Shown: one piece after another, positions 15,806-22,601 of the stretch
How positions within the stretch are numbered: the first letter of the stretch is position 1
Layout of the letters: every line of letters starts with the position of its first letter
Source of the DNA: Dolomitihabitans soli
GTDB taxonomy: Bacteria > Actinomycetota > Actinomycetes > Streptosporangiales > Streptosporangiaceae
Direction of reading: 5' to 3'
DNA length: 64,000 nt
NCBI RefSeq assembly: GCF_022213955.1
Contig: NZ_JAKNTW010000020.1
Span: forward strand, 62,001 to 126,000
The notes under the pieces: model-generated
Told to the model about the DNA's origin: nothing
Database searches by the model: none
The model's input: the letters and a program-made list of their open reading frames with translations, nothing else
Program-made: the position numbers and the translations under genes

Positions 15806-16840
<1,035 letters not shown>

Positions 16841-16986
16841 AGGGCTCCTTGGTCCGCCGGGCGATGGTGCGACATGGCCGGGACCAAGGTCACCTCACAG
16901 ACCCGGAGAACGACCAATCCGAAGACGGTCCAGCGGCGAATAGGGATCTGGAAATCCGGCCGGATGCTTCCTCCCCAGAATTTCAG

Positions 16987-17008
16987 GCCGGTCACCTCGG
17001 TGACCGGC
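16987..17008. promoter_or_regulatory. 10-bp-arm palindrome before the DUF4331 operon
   Basis: GCCGGTCACC, two bases, GGTGACCGGC: perfect arms ending 22 bp before the DUF4331 start and just ahead of its AAAGGA ribosome site. It could be an operator, or an mRNA hairpin near the ribosome site. Confidence 0.5.
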
Positions 17009-17030
17009 AGCCGAAAGGACTGAACGACCC

Positions 17031-18413
17031 ATGGAGCTCCGAATCAATCGGCGCGCCCTGATCGGCATCGGCGTCGCGGGAGCACTGACCGTCTCCTCGC
17101 TCGCGCTGCTCAGAGCGGAGACCGGAGTGGCGTCCTCGCACCGCGAGGCGCCCATGATCGCGGGTGACCCCCGCAACGACAACACCGACGTGTACGCGTT
17201 CGTCAGCCCGGACAAGCCCGACACCGTCACCCTGATGGCCAACTTCATCCCATTCGAGGAGCCGACCGGCGGACCGAACTTCTACCAGTTCGACACCAAG
17301 TCGCGCTACAACATCAAGATCGACAGTAACGGCGACGCGATGCCCGACATCGTCTACGAGTGGACGTTCCGCGACGACGACAAGCGCGGCACCGGCACCT
17401 TCCTGTACAACAACGGCCCGGTCACCTCGCTGAACGACAAGAACCTGCTGTTCAAGCAGCGCTACACGCTCAAGCGGATCGCCCACGGGCGGACCCGCAC
17501 CCTGGTCGCGAACGGCGTGGCGGCCCCGAGCAACACCGGCCCCGCCTCGATGCCCGCCTACGACACGCTCCGCGCCCAGTCGATCAAGAAGCTGGACGGC
17601 GGCGGCCGGGCGTTCGCCGGGCAGGCCGACGAGGCGTTCTTCGCCGACCTGCGGGTCTTCGACCTGCTCTACGGCGGTGACCTCTCCGAGGTCGGCCAGG
17701 ACACGCTCAAGGGCTACAACGTGCACAGTCTCGCGTTGCAGCTGCCCAAGAAGGAGATCGCGCTGAAGGGCGACGCCCGTCGCAACCCGGTCATCGGCGT
17801 CTGGTCCACCGTGGACAAGTGGAGCCCGCAGGGCTTCGTCCAGGTTTCCCGACTGGGCCAGCCGCTGGTCAACGAGGTCGTGGTGCCGGCCGGTCTGAAG
17901 GACACCTTCAACGCGCTGCCGCCGCACAAGGACGCCGGCGTCCCGGCCGTCGTCAAGCGCGTCACCTCCCCTGAGGTCCCCCGGCTCATCGAGGCCATCT
18001 ACGGCGTCAAGGCGCCGAAGACCCCGCGGAACGACCTGGTCGAGATCTTCCTGACCGGCATCGCCAAGGCCAACGGTCCCATCAAGGCCGATCTCAACTC
18101 GCAGAGCCTCAACAAGGACGCGGGCAAGCTGCGCCCGGCGGAGATGCTGCGGCTGAACATGGCCGTCCCGCCCGCCGCGACTCCCAACCGGCTCGGTGTG
18201 CTCGCGGGTGACCTGCAGGGCTTCCCGAACGGCCGCCGCCTCGGGGACGACGTGATCGACATCGCGCTGCAGGCGATGGTCGGCGCCGCCCAGACCGGAA
18301 AGCTGGTCGACGCGCTGGCCGCCGGCGACAAGGTGGACCAGAACGACAAGCCGTTCGGCACCCGGTTCCCCTACATCGCGCTGCCCGGCAACACGTCGGT
18401 CAACGCGACCTGA
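17031..18413 (+). CDS. DUF4331 family exported protein
   Basis: 460 residues. It starts with an N-terminal signal or anchor (NRRALIGIGVAGALTVSSLALL, twin-Arg-like RR) and then the SSHREAP motif that opens DUF4331 proteins, followed by DPRNDNTDVYAFVSPD and FIPFEEPTGGPNFYQFD. The fold is probably a large beta-rich domain outside the cell; the biochemical role of the family is unknown. It is first in a three-gene same-strand set with a TPR protein and a Ni/Co-transporter-like protein. This association suggests a shared envelope or metal-related function (inference). The start is supported by AAAGGA upstream. Confidence 0.9.
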   Translation: MELRINRRALIGIGVAGALTVSSLALLRAETGVASSHREAPMIAGDPRNDNTDVYAFVSPDKPDTVTLMANFIPFEEPTGGPNFYQFDTKSRYNIKIDSNGDAMPDIVYEWTFRDDDKRGTGTFLYNNGPVTSLNDKNLLFKQRYTLKRIAHGRTRTLVANGVAAPSNTGPASMPAYDTLRAQSIKKLDGGGRAFAGQADEAFFADLRVFDLLYGGDLSEVGQDTLKGYNVHSLALQLPKKEIALKGDARRNPVIGVWSTVDKWSPQGFVQVSRLGQPLVNEVVVPAGLKDTFNALPPHKDAGVPAVVKRVTSPEVPRLIEAIYGVKAPKTPRNDLVEIFLTGIAKANGPIKADLNSQSLNKDAGKLRPAEMLRLNMAVPPAATPNRLGVLAGDLQGFPNGRRLGDDVIDIALQAMVGAAQTGKLVDALAAGDKVDQNDKPFGTRFPYIALPGNTSVNAT

Positions 18414-18422
18414 CCCGACGAC

Positions 18423-18447
18423 GCGGGACCCGGTCCCCGGGTCCCGC
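18423..18447 (+). terminator. Intercistronic hairpin (possible attenuator)
   Basis: Arms GCGGGACCCG and CGGGTCCCGC (10 bp, perfect) with a 5-base loop, ten bases after the DUF4331 stop and 24 bases before the TPR gene start. It could reduce downstream expression or stabilise the 5' message. Confidence 0.5.
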
Positions 18448-18470
18448 ACCCGGTCACGAGGGACATCACA

Positions 18471-19760
18471 GTGAAGACATCCGCGAAAGCCCTGATCGCC
18501 GCAGGCGTGCTGAGCCTGGCGGCGGCGCTGACGGCGGGGGCGGCCCTGATCCCCGGCGAGCCACCCCCGCCGGCCGCCGCCGTCCCCGCGCAGGCGGCCG
18601 ACATCCCGGTCTCGGCCGCCTCCCACGCGGACGCGATCCGGTCGCTGAACCTCCGGCTCCGGCGGCTGCCCGCCGATCACCAGGCGTGGGCCCAGCTCGG
18701 TTCCGCCTACGTCCAGCAGGCCCGCCTCACGGCCGACCCGTCCTTCTACCCGAAGGCCGAGCAGGCGCTGGCCCGCTCCGCCGTACTGGCGCCCGGCAAC
18801 TTCGCCGCGCTGACCGGTCAGGCCGCGCTCGCCGCCGGTCGGCACGACTTCACCGAAGCCGTACGGCTGGCCAGGCTGTCGGAGCGGGCCAACCCCTACG
18901 GCCAGGGTGCGCAGGCGGTGCTGGCCGACGCGTACACCCAGCTCGGCCGGTACGGCGAGGCCACCCGGGCGATCAACAGGATGCTGGAACTGCACCCCGG
19001 GGTCGCGGCCTACACCCGGGCCTCCTACGACGCCGAACTGCGGGGGGATCGCCGGACGGCGCGCCGCATGCTGGAGTACGCCCTCGACGGCGCCTTCTCC
19101 CTCGCCGACATCGCCTACTGCCGTCACTACCTGGGTGAGCTGGCCCTGCACTCCGGTGACCTGCGCGGCGCCACCGAGCAGTACCGCCTCGCGTTGCGGG
19201 CCGCCCCGGACTACACGCCGGCCCTCGCCGGGACCGCCAGGGCCGCCGCGCTCGCCGGCCGACCGGCCGAGGCCGCCGACGTCTACGCCACCGTGGTCGA
19301 ACGCCTGCCTCTGCCGCAGTACGTCATCGAGTACGCCGAGGTGCTGGTCGCGGCGGGCAGGGACCCCGCGGAGCAGTGGGCGCTGCTGCGCGCGCAGCGG
19401 GACCTGATGCGGGAGACCGGCGTCCGGGACGACCTGACCTGGGCCGAGTTCGAAGCCGACCACGGCTCCCCCGCGCGGGCCGTCGCGCACGCCGAAGCCG
19501 AGTACGCCCGCAACCCCAACGTGGTCGCCGCCGACGCGCTGGCCTGGGCCCTGTACCGCGACGGCCGGGCCGAGGAGGCGCTCCCCCGCGCGCGCGAGGC
19601 CACCGCCACCGGCTGGCGCAACGCCCTGTTCCACCATCACCGCGCCGAGATCGAACGCGCCCTCGGACTCGACGGAGCATCCCGGCGCTCAGCCGCCCGG
19701 GCCCGCGACGCCGATCCGGCCTTCTCCCCCGCCCTCCCCGCACTGGCGAGGTTCTCATGA
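18471..19760 (+). CDS. Exported tetratricopeptide-repeat protein
   Basis: 429 residues with an N-terminal hydrophobic signal/anchor (ALIAAGVLSLAAALTAGAALI) and then about ten helical TPR-like repeats. Recognisable units include WAQLGSAYVQQARL, AVLADAYTQLGRYGEA and ALAGTARAAALAGRPAEA. TPRs are protein-protein scaffolds, probably on the outer face of the membrane here. The GTG start follows a GAGGGA site. Its stop overlaps the start of the transporter gene (ATGA), so the two are translationally coupled and probably made in fixed ratio. Confidence 0.88.
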   Translation: MKTSAKALIAAGVLSLAAALTAGAALIPGEPPPPAAAVPAQAADIPVSAASHADAIRSLNLRLRRLPADHQAWAQLGSAYVQQARLTADPSFYPKAEQALARSAVLAPGNFAALTGQAALAAGRHDFTEAVRLARLSERANPYGQGAQAVLADAYTQLGRYGEATRAINRMLELHPGVAAYTRASYDAELRGDRRTARRMLEYALDGAFSLADIAYCRHYLGELALHSGDLRGATEQYRLALRAAPDYTPALAGTARAAALAGRPAEAADVYATVVERLPLPQYVIEYAEVLVAAGRDPAEQWALLRAQRDLMRETGVRDDLTWAEFEADHGSPARAVAHAEAEYARNPNVVAADALAWALYRDGRAEEALPRAREATATGWRNALFHHHRAEIERALGLDGASRRSAARARDADPAFSPALPALARFS

Positions 19761-21421
19761 CGCCCGGAACGGCCCTCCGGACGGCGGCGGCCACGGCCGT
19801 CGCCGGCCTGCTGATGTGCGCGACCCTCCTGGCGCCCGCCGCGCCCGCCCACGCCGGGGTGACGCATCCGCTGGGCAACTTCACCGTCAACCACTACAAC
19901 GGCCTGCGGGTCACGCCCGGTCAGGTGGCGAATCTGGCGGTCGTGGACAGCGCCGAACTGCCCACCCTCCAGGCCCGCTCCGCGGTGGACGCCGATCGGT
20001 CGGGAACGGTCTCGGCGGCCGAAAGCACGGCGTACGGCACCGCCAGATGCGCCGAACTCGCCGCCGCGCAACGATTGACGGTGAACGGGGTCGCGACGGC
20101 GTGGCAGGTCGCCGAGGCCGTCTTCGCCTATGAGCCCGGCCAGGGCGGCCTGCGGACCAGCCGCCTGACGTGCCGGCTGACGGCCGACGCCGAACCGCTC
20201 CGGGCCGCCGCCCTTTCGCCGGAGGACGGCGGGACGATCGGGTTCAGCGACGGCTTCCTGGCCGACCGGCTGGGCTGGCGGGAGATCACCGCGGTGTCCT
20301 CCGGAGGACTGGGGCTGGCACGATCGTCGGTGCCCGGCGCGAGCGTGAGCCGTGAACTGCGGGCCTACCCGGACGACCTGCTGGCCGTACCGCTCGACCA
20401 GCGTACGGCCGAGCTCGTCGTGCGGCCGGGAGCCGGTTCGACGACGACGGCGCCGCTGCCGCCGGTGTCCGGCGGGCCTCTCGGGGACGCGCTGGCCGCG
20501 CTGGACCGCCTGTTCACGGAGCTGATCGGCGCCGAGTCCCTGACCGTGCCGCTGGGCGTGCTCGCCGTACTGCTGGCCGTTGTGCTCGGCGCGGGCCACG
20601 CCCTCATCCCCGGCCATGGCAAGACCATCATGGCCGCGTACCTCGCCGGGCGGAGCGGCCGGCCGCGTGACGCACTGGTCGTCGGGGCCACCGTGACGGC
20701 CACCCACACGCTGGGCGTTCTGGTCGTCGGCCTGTGCCTGACCGCCTTCTCCGCCCTCACCGGGGAGTCCGTGCTCGGCTGGCTCGGCCTGGCCAGCGGG
20801 GTGTTGATCACCGCCGTCGGCGCGGGTCTCCTGTGGTCGGCCTGGCGCGCCCGCCACGGCCACGCCCGCTCCGGCCACGGACATGGACACGGCCACGGAC
20901 CTTTCGGGCACGGACACGGACACGCCCATGGGCATGGGCATGGGCATGGGCACGGGCACTCCGCTCAAGAGCGGGACCAGTGGCCCGGCCGCGACGGGGG
21001 CCGGGCGGGCGAGACCGAGTATGACCACCCGGATCAGGGAGGCGTCCGGACGCTGGTGCGGGAGCACGAACGGCCCGCGCGTGCCGAGGCCCCGCGTTCT
21101 GCGAGCGGGCTGGTGGGGATGGGGGTGGCGGGAGGTCTGGTGCCCAGCCCTTCGGCGCTCGTCGTCCTGCTCGGCGCCATCGCGCTCGGCCGCACGTGGT
21201 TCGGGGTCGCGCTGGTGTTCGCCTACGGCATCGGCATGGCGGGCACGCTGACCGCCACCGGCCTGCTCCTAGTCAAGCTGGCGGGACGGCTCGACGCGCT
21301 GGCGGCGAAGGGGAACGGCATGGCGGCCCGCCTGTCGTCGCTCGCCCCGATCGGCACCGCCGCCGTCGTCATCGTGCTCGGCGTGGGCCTGGCCGTACGG
21401 GGGATCGCCGGAGTCGTCTGA
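19757..21421 (+). CDS. Ni/Co-transporter-like membrane protein with N-terminal extracellular domain and His-rich loop
   Basis: 554 residues. A signal peptide (ending AHAG, about 34) is followed by an extracellular domain (about 35-250) opening HPLGNFTVNHYNGL and containing an EF-hand-like loop DADRSGTVSAAES. The C-terminal half has about six membrane spans with the RcnA/NiCoT-type motifs HALIPGHGKTIMAAYLAG, THTLGVL and GLVPSPSALVVLLG. Between spans lies a cytoplasmic loop with about 20 histidines alternating with Gly (about residues 370-405), a typical metal-binding stretch. Role: probably transition-metal transport; direction and ion are unknown. The ATG at 19757 is fixed by the 4-bp overlap with the TPR gene. 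Confidence 0.85.
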   Translation: MTPGTALRTAAATAVAGLLMCATLLAPAAPAHAGVTHPLGNFTVNHYNGLRVTPGQVANLAVVDSAELPTLQARSAVDADRSGTVSAAESTAYGTARCAELAAAQRLTVNGVATAWQVAEAVFAYEPGQGGLRTSRLTCRLTADAEPLRAAALSPEDGGTIGFSDGFLADRLGWREITAVSSGGLGLARSSVPGASVSRELRAYPDDLLAVPLDQRTAELVVRPGAGSTTTAPLPPVSGGPLGDALAALDRLFTELIGAESLTVPLGVLAVLLAVVLGAGHALIPGHGKTIMAAYLAGRSGRPRDALVVGATVTATHTLGVLVVGLCLTAFSALTGESVLGWLGLASGVLITAVGAGLLWSAWRARHGHARSGHGHGHGHGPFGHGHGHAHGHGHGHGHGHSAQERDQWPGRDGGRAGETEYDHPDQGGVRTLVREHERPARAEAPRSASGLVGMGVAGGLVPSPSALVVLLGAIALGRTWFGVALVFAYGIGMAGTLTATGLLLVKLAGRLDALAAKGNGMAARLSSLAPIGTAAVVIVLGVGLAVRGIAGVV

Positions 21422-21516
21422 GGAGCCGGAGCCGTCCATGGAAACGCCGTTCCGCGGGAGGCGCGCCCGCGGATCGCCGCCGGCCGGCGGGCCTCACCGG
21501 CCTACCGGCCCGGCCG

Positions 21517-21595
21517 GCCTGCGGGTCCGGCCGGCCTGCGGGTCCGGCCGGCCTGCGGGTCCGGCCGGCCTGCGGGTCCGGCCGGCCTGCGGGTC
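21517..21595. repeat. 17-bp tandem repeat, four full copies plus 11 bp
   Basis: Unit GCCTGCGGGTCCGGCCG repeated exactly at 21517, 21534, 21551 and 21568, with a partial fifth copy at 21585-21595. It lies between the convergent transporter and glycosidase genes and provides part of the latter's stop codon. Each junction contains CCGGCCGG, so the array can fold into alternative GC hairpins and may act as a terminator. Confidence 0.85.
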
Positions 21596-22601
21596 ACGCC
21601 GAACGCGCGACGGAGATGCCGCGGCTCTCGTTCTGGCGATACCCGTCCAACATGATCGGCTCGATCCTGCGCACCGCGCAGTAGTAGTGCTCCAGCACGC
21701 CGTCCCGCCAGAGGACTGCCGGCTTGTGGGCGTAACACTCGTCGACGCTGCCGGGCGGGCCCACGTCGACCAGGATTTCCCCGCCCTTGGTCCATTGGAG
21801 CAGGTCCGGCGATGTCGCGAAGGAGTCGCGCGCCTTGCCGTTCGCCGAGAGCCCGAAGTAGAACATCACCCAGGTGTCGTCCGCTCTGAGCACGCAGGGG
21901 TCGGAGGCGAAACGCTCGTCGAACTCGCCCGCCTCCCCCCGCACGAGCAACGGCCGGTCCGACACGCGCCGCCAGCTGACGAGGTCGGTGGAGACGGCTG
22001 CGCCGGTCTGTTCCGCCCAGCCCCGGGGCGAGTCGTCCTTCGCGTTGTAGAACAGCCAGAAACGGCCCTCATGCTCGAGCAGCCACGACTTGTACAGGCC
22101 GCCGCGCTCCCAGTCCGCGCCGTCCTCCGGCCGGAGCACGTCGCCGAAATCCTCCCACTCGCGCAGGTCACGGCTGCGCACGATGCCGATGACGGCGGAG
22201 CCCTCCTCATATCCCGCGGACGGATAGGCGTGGTAGGTGCCGTAGTACCAGCCGTCGACGGTTAGGAGTTCGCCCGTGCCGAACAGGTCGTTGTCACGCA
22301 GGATCGACGTCAGCGCCGCGTTGTACCGTCGATGGGGAGACGATTCCGCCCGTGCGAACACGACCTCCGGTTCCGTCCAGGTGCCGTCCTCGTTCAGCCA
22401 GGTGAGCGCGGTCTGGTAACCGACGCCGTCCCACCCGACGAAGGTCATACCGGTCGTGCCGTCGCGGGTGAAGACGAACGGGCAGTCCACGGAGTGGCTG
22501 TCGAACCGGCCGGGCGTGTGGCTCGGCGCGATGAGGAGCTCTCCGGCTTTGACGGGCGTGCGGAGGCGCGCGGTGAGGGCCGCGCCGTTTCCTGGCTTCA
22601 A
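21594..22601 (-). CDS. Glycosidase-like five-bladed beta-propeller protein
   Basis: About 335 residues with no signal peptide. Blade-like strands with acidic turns recur: DCPFVFTRDG, FASDPCVLRADDTWVMFYFG, AHKPAVLWRDGVLEHYYC. Phrases such as LYKSWLLEHEGRFWLFYNAKD match the GH43/GH32/GH130-type propeller superfamily that acts on arabinosides, fructosides or manno-oligosaccharides. Family and substrate are not resolved. The start is uncertain: the TTG at 22601 with AAGGA five bases upstream is chosen because it keeps the first blade; no ATG upstream fits. The C-terminus runs to the tandem repeat, where the stop falls. Confidence 0.7.
   Translation of the reverse strand: MKPGNGAALTARLRTPVKAGELLIAPSHTPGRFDSHSVDCPFVFTRDGTTGMTFVGWDGVGYQTALTWLNEDGTWTEPEVVFARAESSPHRRYNAALTSILRDNDLFGTGELLTVDGWYYGTYHAYPSAGYEEGSAVIGIVRSRDLREWEDFGDVLRPEDGADWERGGLYKSWLLEHEGRFWLFYNAKDDSPRGWAEQTGAAVSTDLVSWRRVSDRPLLVRGEAGEFDERFASDPCVLRADDTWVMFYFGLSANGKARDSFATSPDLLQWTKGGEILVDVGPPGSVDECYAHKPAVLWRDGVLEHYYCAVRRIEPIMLDGYRQNESRGISVARSA

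Follow-up and report, generated by a model that had tools for sequence, protein, structure and literature searches.

A conserved DUF4331, TPR and NicO-family operon in Dolomitihabitans soli as a candidate SigK-controlled system for capture of nickel or copper

Organization of the DUF4331 locus

The stretch of DNA analysed here (the window) comprises 64,000 nucleotides of Dolomitihabitans soli contig NZ_JAKNTW010000020.1 and carries, consecutively and on one strand at 17031–21421, genes encoding a DUF4331 protein, an exported tetratricopeptide repeat (TPR) protein and a NicO-family transporter, the same-strand set described in the original prediction. All stranded features given for the window lie on the plus strand. 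The DUF4331 gene (17031–18413) matches PF14224 with 505 bits against a gathering threshold of 27, across positions 1–421 of the 421-position profile. The TPR gene (18471–19760) begins with a GTG start codon and matches TPR_14 with 39.8 bits, and its stop codon overlaps the start of the transporter gene (19757–21421; PF03824, 32.9 bits against a cut-off of 27.7) in the sequence ATGA.

Upstream of the DUF4331 gene lies a putative SigK-type extracytoplasmic function (ECF) promoter (16914–16942; ATCC-N16-CGAAT), consisting of the −35 element CCAATCC at 16914–16920 and the −10 element CGAATA at 16937–16942. Just 3′ of the −10 element is the palindrome ATCCGGCCGGAT (16954–16965), a possible operator, the core of which, CCGGCCGG, is kept in 16/16 aligned leaders. 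The perfect dyad that had been predicted ahead of the genes is present at 16987–17008 as GCCGGTCACC-TC-GGTGACCGGC, a 22-base inverted repeat with 10-bp arms, and is followed by a GAAAGGA resembling a ribosome binding site (17013–17019). The dyad was rejected as a general operator, being missing from most aligned leaders: among the other 15 it occurs only in loci L043, L045 and L046, with changed bases, and imperfectly in L082. The hairpin predicted between the first two genes has a perfect 11-bp stem (18423–18447).

The upstream aldo/keto reductase gene (15806–16840) was rejected as an operon member on tblastn over L001–L073, in which relatives outside the genome of D. soli were only weaker (32–46%; L006/L035, L012 and L052). 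Directly past the transporter gene, tandem repeats of approximately 17 bases (CCGGCCGGCCTGCGGGT, read by eye) occupy 21510–21600.

Conservation of the three genes in Actinomycetota

Sampling of the family found DUF4331 in 67 of 150 genomes, and sampling of the phylum in 68 of 396. The best 80 of 590 relatives were kept from a scan, all of them actinobacterial, and gene order was counted in the 68 of these loci having at least 3.5 kb of downstream sequence. DUF4331, TPR and NicO genes follow in order on one strand in 56/68, so that the neighbourhood survey proposed with the original prediction found the trio conserved together; five of the remaining loci lack NicO, one lacks an adjoining TPR gene, and six have neither inside the set limits, several of these carrying them elsewhere in the locus. 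As the sequences are related, the loci in this and all following counts are not independent events.

Translational coupling of the TPR and NicO genes, described earlier for the window, is conserved as judged from gene overlap, because the TPR stop codon lies within ATGA or GTGA in 75/76 trio loci compared with 28/118 DUF4331 stops. Perfect stems of at least 8 bp follow the DUF4331 stop codon in 33 of 90 loci (duplicates such as L037/L083 included); the figure inside the TPR gene is 3/90, and shuffling gives an expectation of 2.0. The stems differ in sequence between loci and the hairpin is therefore a recurring device, which may set how much binding protein is made relative to the membrane parts. 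A crude cut-off picks out a hydrophobic segment at the C-terminus of 41 of 127 DUF4331 proteins, of which there is none in the sequence of the window protein, and a class F sortase gene is found nearby in Streptomyces, Actinomadura, Blastococcus and others.

The N-terminus of DUF4331 proteins

Cleavage of the DUF4331 signal peptide at the predicted site would leave S35-S36-H37 (codons 17133–17141) as the mature start, placing His at position 3 of a free N-terminus as in the amino-terminal Cu(II)- and Ni(II)-binding (ATCUN) motif. For comparison, 161 distinct N-termini were taken by a script that needed X-X-His plus the motif D.[TSC]D., and the residue preceding X-X-His in these is Ala in 150, the start codon in nine, and Gly and Ser in one each. 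The tripeptide is SSH in 145, SNH in six, ASH in five, TSH in four and SHH in one, and position −3 is A, G, S, V or T in 150/161 and Pro in seven; the residues before X-X-His have the pattern of a predicted signal peptidase I site. Invariance of the His is taken from alignments, since the script itself required X-X-His: His37 is the sole invariant His across 20 diverse DUF4331 members (20/20) and is also invariant in 60/60 actinobacterial ones. Neither alignment includes the paralogue L061, which has Arg at this position.

Of the nine signal-less N-termini, six are from long forms (Met-SSHREAP) and three from short plasmid forms, one of the nine (L162) being annotated with an earlier start. 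Further short DUF4331 proteins (L069, L071 and L073) start Met-Ser-x-His, and at L068 and L070 this sequence sits within a longer frame. Along with the window copy, the D. soli genome has two short, distant DUF4331 genes (C30:586650–587339 and C1:254462–255235; L070 and L071) with MSNH and MSHH near or at the start, and no TPR or NicO neighbours of these were found by tblastn in 16 kb. Signal-less proteins are expected to present X-X-His as well after Met removal. Because exported and cytosolic forms would both put a free amine exactly two residues before the His, which a purely structural His would presumably not need, the mature N-terminus is predicted to chelate Cu(II)/Ni(II) in the manner of an ATCUN motif. 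Motifs of this type bind both Cu(II) and Ni(II) (PMC12509749).

The AlphaFold model of the DUF4331 protein has a predicted local distance difference test score (pLDDT) of 80 and a predicted template modelling score (pTM) of 0.84, with residues 1–37 below a pLDDT of 50. Neither sequence nor fold comparison of DUF4331 with the PDB gave a significant match, the best VIA fold match being CBM74 (Z 7.7). Other invariant residues of the family include NGRR and QxSR, and no paper on the family was found in the open-licence literature searched.

Architecture of the transporter

The transporter is predicted to consist of a signal peptide, an anglerase-like outer domain (approximately residues 37–226, the His37 codon at 19865) and a NicO/RcnA-type membrane domain. 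The outer domain contains the EF-hand loop DADRSGTVSAAE (19988–20023; residues 78–89), and a His-rich loop lies between predicted transmembrane helices (20852–20959). Both elements had been noticed in the original prediction, which overcounted the latter at about 20 histidines; there are 17 in the loop segment and 15 in its His-Gly run. In the model, the His-rich loop comes three transmembrane helices after the outward N-terminal domain and is most likely cytoplasmic, with only the EF-hand domain predicted to face outside. Across 45 aligned transporters, invariant residues include H37-P38, Cys 98, Cys 139, D64 and E67 in the outer domain and H281, PGHGKT (285–290), H317 and a GxxPSPxA motif in the membrane part. 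Ala precedes the His-Pro in 66 of 77 NicO relatives (six more, without the motif, were left out).

In the transporter model (pLDDT 78, pTM 0.54), the top Foldseek match of the outer domain is PDB 9gce (probability 1.00, target template modelling score 0.48), which is Ang-1, the outer domain of a HupE/UreJ-2 permease, with copper bound (PMC12537917). VIA superimposes 9gce on this beta-sandwich domain over 137 residues with a root mean square deviation of 3.5 Å and a Z of 8.3, a value barely exceeding what unrelated folds commonly reach, and the next matches are to the zinc proteins ZrgA (7.4) and PA4063 (6.4). In hhalign, NicO and HupE outer domains align through their EF-hand loops with a score of 25.9 (12%), compared with at most 15.5 in 20 column shuffles, so sequence kinship is only suggestive. 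A NicO profile gave mostly His-run or weak matches against PDB sequences, and 9gce is not among the 30 matches listed. The Ang-1 ligands are His1 and an O atom of Asn41, the dissociation constants of the anglerase are 74 nM for Cu and 220 nM for Ni, Co is slightly destabilising, and the authors propose a function in metal capture and assimilation (PMC12537917). By analogy with Asp33 of Ang-2 in the same paper, D64/E67 is a candidate second metal ligand.

The promoter and its possible link to SigK

Common to the 16 aligned family leaders are ATCC, a block resembling CGAATA, CCGGCCGG and a ribosome site with GGA. The pattern ATCC-N16-CGAAT is found in 45/161 upstream regions at spacing 16, and in 47 at spacings of 15–19, within the family and Streptomyces, with the consensus aCCAATCC-N16-CGAAT. 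By its likeness to the SigK consensus, which was not found in print in the literature searched, this promoter is presumably of SigK type. Reading the pattern backwards gave 0/161 matches and the other strand 17; nine of the 17 are sites of the CCATCC type at loci where sigK is divergent, and eight have no such neighbour. The 10.8-Mb D. soli genome has two matches to AATCCG-N12-17-CGAATA, one of them at the window operon. The second (L208:3577, minus strand; C22:121549–121576), with a spacing one longer, is upstream, by approximately 120 bases, of a gene whose product is a small exported protein containing Cys (L208:3116–3457, minus strand), possibly a second SigK target.

A single RskA_C gene is present in the genome, adjoined by SigK (276.5 bits against a cut-off of 226), and the promoter motif was not found upstream of this sigK. 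A SigK with at least 58% identity to that of D. soli is encoded in the DUF4331 locus in 19 of the best 80 (of 590) loci, from five genera and with 15 of the 19 in Streptomyces, and is linked to DUF4331 in 6/40 further loci of the family; L092, L112, L130, L141 and L143 have only weaker SigK relatives. In Pseudoalteromonas (L080 and L201) an ECF factor and an RskA-like anti-sigma factor are encoded directly upstream of the DUF4331 genes, and in Marinobacter (L075) nearby. The two proteobacterial ECF factors that were scored fall below the SigK cut-off, and the best model for that of L201 is not SigK. Together, the window promoter CCAATCC-N16-CGAATA and the repeated sigK-rskA neighbourhood suggest control of the operon by SigK. 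The trigger of SigK-RskA is stated to be unknown (PMC7509140).

Genomic context of metal use

CbiM, CbiQ and CbiO genes come after the trio, and on its strand, in Nocardioides locus L131 (CbiQ 150 bits, cut-off 111.8; CbiO 215, cut-off 211.8; CbiM 154.8 at best, below 219), and tblastn places CbiM and CbiQ after the trio in Nocardioides L134. At L144, cbiM and cbiQ are divergent from DUF4331, and CbiM/CbiQ were not found at E 1e-6 in the other loci examined. CbiMNQO imports Co/Ni (PMC7689651). RcnA and NiCoT are reported to prefer Ni and Co, and a cyanobacterial HupE Co. Nickel superoxide dismutase is encoded in 55/57 DUF4331-carrying genomes (match at E < 1e-60) compared with 58/92 other relatives (Fisher p 1e-6, kinship ignored).

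DUF4331 with HupE permeases outside Actinomycetota

Among 43 plasmid records with a DUF4331 match, 21 were examined, 14 of these being full-length and proteobacterial, and eight of the 14 encode DUF4331 together with a TPR protein and a HupE permease. These trios are found in Marinobacter, Lichenicola (two), Comamonadaceae, Variovorax, Paraburkholderia (two) and Pseudoalteromonas HL-AS1, with the gene order TPR, HupE, DUF4331 in Paraburkholderia L196. Pfam was run on five of the TPR and four of the HupE proteins, the others being assigned by annotation or tblastn; PF13795 is matched in all four HupE proteins scanned, and the Lichenicola TPR matches are below Pfam cut-offs. Ala before His and an EF-hand-like loop are present in the HupE proteins of 8/8 trios. 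The membrane partner can be NicO or HupE, which suggests that it is the function that is conserved. Pseudoalteromonas THAF3 has DUF4331 and TPR without HupE (1/14), a Bacteroidota record has DUF4331 and TPR only, and in Rhizobium a HupE/UreJ gene (164.5 bits) comes after a short DUF4331 gene.

In the remaining five records, all from Rhodobacterales (L199, L200, L202, L203 and L078), DUF4331 adjoins type II secretion genes instead of TPR and HupE, a neighbourhood that suggests DUF4331 would be the secreted substrate of a type II system, the set as a whole being a candidate dedicated secretion system. A prepilin peptidase gene is included in 4/5 of these plasmids, and a 70- to 76-residue protein of unknown kind is encoded 3′ of it in 4/5.

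Proposed function and alternatives

The locus was confirmed and is conserved, and its reading has become more specific than the original one. The original prediction is partly supported, an envelope metal system standing as a set of co-conserved genes, and the "unknown purpose" it assigned to them can be narrowed because of the N-terminal chelation motif, the anglerase-like domain, the putative SigK-type control and the Nocardioides Co/Ni uptake genes. The operon is tentatively read as a SigK-controlled system for the capture and uptake of Ni(II), at a little under an even chance, with Cu(II) the main rival metal. The preference for Ni(II) comes from its being the only metal that is shared by ATCUN motifs, anglerases, HupE/NicO permeases and CbiMQO.

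In the proposed mechanism, exported DUF4331 would coordinate Ni(II) (or Cu(II)) on the outer side of the membrane by its N-terminal amine, two deprotonated amides and His3, and the TPR protein, a probable adaptor, would dock it at the membrane. The metal would then pass to the N-terminal His/acidic site of the anglerase-like domain of the transporter and cross the NicO pore via H281, H287 and H317, to be buffered by the cytoplasmic His loop. The hairpin after the first gene would allow excess production of the binding protein.

Several observations weigh against this proposal. NicO was not found beside DUF4331-TPR in 10/10 loci L058–L067, and in a DUF4331 paralogue (L061:7367–8917) Arg replaces the N-terminal His (SNR, not SNH). 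The window transporter has Thr before His37 (AHA-GVT-HPL) and 11/77 relatives are also without Ala, while the 9gce match has an E of 0.002 and pairs residue 1 of 9gce with model residue 41, not 37. Anglerases favour Cu(II) over Ni(II) (PMC12537917), the nearest NCBIfam model is that of RcnA efflux (NF007454), and CbiM adjacency is confined to three loci, all Nocardioidaceae, and does not extend to L137 or L139. Urease does not track DUF4331 (45/57 compared with 62/92, p 0.14) and was rejected as the paying enzyme. Regarding regulation, the strict promoter is present in only 45/161 upstream regions, and sigK-rskA of D. soli is on another contig, unlinked to the operon. In M. tuberculosis, one study found that published sigma consensus motifs predict poorly (PMC4821874), SigK is reported to make no contribution to iron homeostasis, and the role of Rip1 in the chalkophore (copper) response is called sigma-independent (PMC10449499).

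The same architecture could instead handle copper, capturing Cu(II) for extracytoplasmic cuproproteins, a serious rival that we nevertheless consider doubtful. ATCUN motifs bind Cu(II) more tightly than Ni(II). Cu(II) is also the preferred metal of the two anglerases for which binding was measured, and the 9gce structure contains copper (PMC12537917). The third genes, however, belong to Ni/Co permease families, Co/Ni uptake genes follow the trio in two Nocardioides loci, and no copper family was seen in the 28 neighbour clusters listed, of which only SigK, RskA, sortase and Cbi were identified to family.

Export of Ni, Co or Cu for envelope protection, with an RcnA-like NicO protein and DUF4331 sequestering the metal outside, is a lesser rival and improbable. 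With its His-rich loop the transporter has an RcnA-like layout, and its best NCBIfam match is to that nickel/cobalt efflux family, below the cut-off; an outward metal-binding domain led by a signal peptide better suits capture, which is also what the anglerase authors propose (PMC12537917), and uptake genes adjoin the trio in Nocardioides. Least probable of all is that DUF4331 acts as an enzyme or has a structural role at the surface, with a structural N-terminal His and a NicO-like protein moving something other than a metal: the many invariant residues (NGRR, QxSR) are untypical of a simple chelator, no fold match tells of a function, and type II secretion clusters or class F sortases lie beside DUF4331 in some genomes, but a structural role leaves unexplained a free N-terminus exactly two residues before the His in both the exported and the signal-less forms.

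Metal capture could be extended to the family as a whole, although this broader proposal is unlikely: DUF4331 proteins would form a widespread class of protein metallophores, secreted or tethered to the surface, with Ni(II) (or Cu(II)) held by a genetically fixed X-X-His N-terminus that results from signal peptidase cleavage or from where the start codon lies. They would pass the metal on to permeases of the anglerase type, and extracytoplasmic metal status would be the long-sought SigK-RskA signal in actinobacteria outside Mycobacterium. DUF4331 is widespread and the trio is found in soil and marine bacteria; if correct, this would give the family a concrete chemistry as an N-terminal Cu/Ni chelator, extend the 2025 anglerase idea to NicO transporters, define a three-gene module common to Actinomycetota and Pseudomonadota, and make metal status a testable signal for SigK-RskA.

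Comparison with known systems

In function, the locus would resemble a metal-capture permease that faces outward, its binding protein being exported separately. One close likeness is to the Ang-1/Ang-2 HupE/UreJ-2 permeases (PMC12537917), which share a signal peptide, an outer domain with a His predicted at or near its N-terminus and a Ni/Cu-type permease, and the outer domain of the window transporter structurally matches 9gce. The membrane part, however, is NicO (PF03824) and not HupE, similarity between the outer-domain sequences is weak (hhalign 12%), and PF13795 is found neither in the window transporter (E 1) nor in the D. soli genome (E 0.001). NicO, RcnA, DUF4331, ATCUN and tetratricopeptide do not occur in the text of the anglerase paper (PMC12537917).

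With RcnA the transporter shares the NicO-type membrane part and the His-rich loop, whereas it adds a signal peptide, an outer domain and operon partners, and it scores 105.6 bits with NF007454 against a cut-off of 195. The transporter is filed under neither anglerase HupE nor RcnA, because it is without the HupE domain and below the RcnA cut-off. An N-terminal His copper site beside a membrane transporter is a feature of PcoC (CopC/PcoC), and a comparable site adjoining a membrane transporter is described for YcnI-YcnJ copper uptake; no Pfam match to CopC, CopD or YcnI was found in the three operon proteins.

CbiMNQO, an ECF-type Co/Ni importer whose genes come after the trio at Nocardioides loci L131 and L134, is alike in metal uptake but is a transporter separate from the trio. 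The SigK-RskA regulon of Mycobacterium (mpt70/mpt83) resembles the present system in the putative SigK-type promoter and in the sigK-rskA neighbourhood of DUF4331 loci, and differs in that the target here is DUF4331-TPR-NicO and that sigK is unlinked in the D. soli genome.

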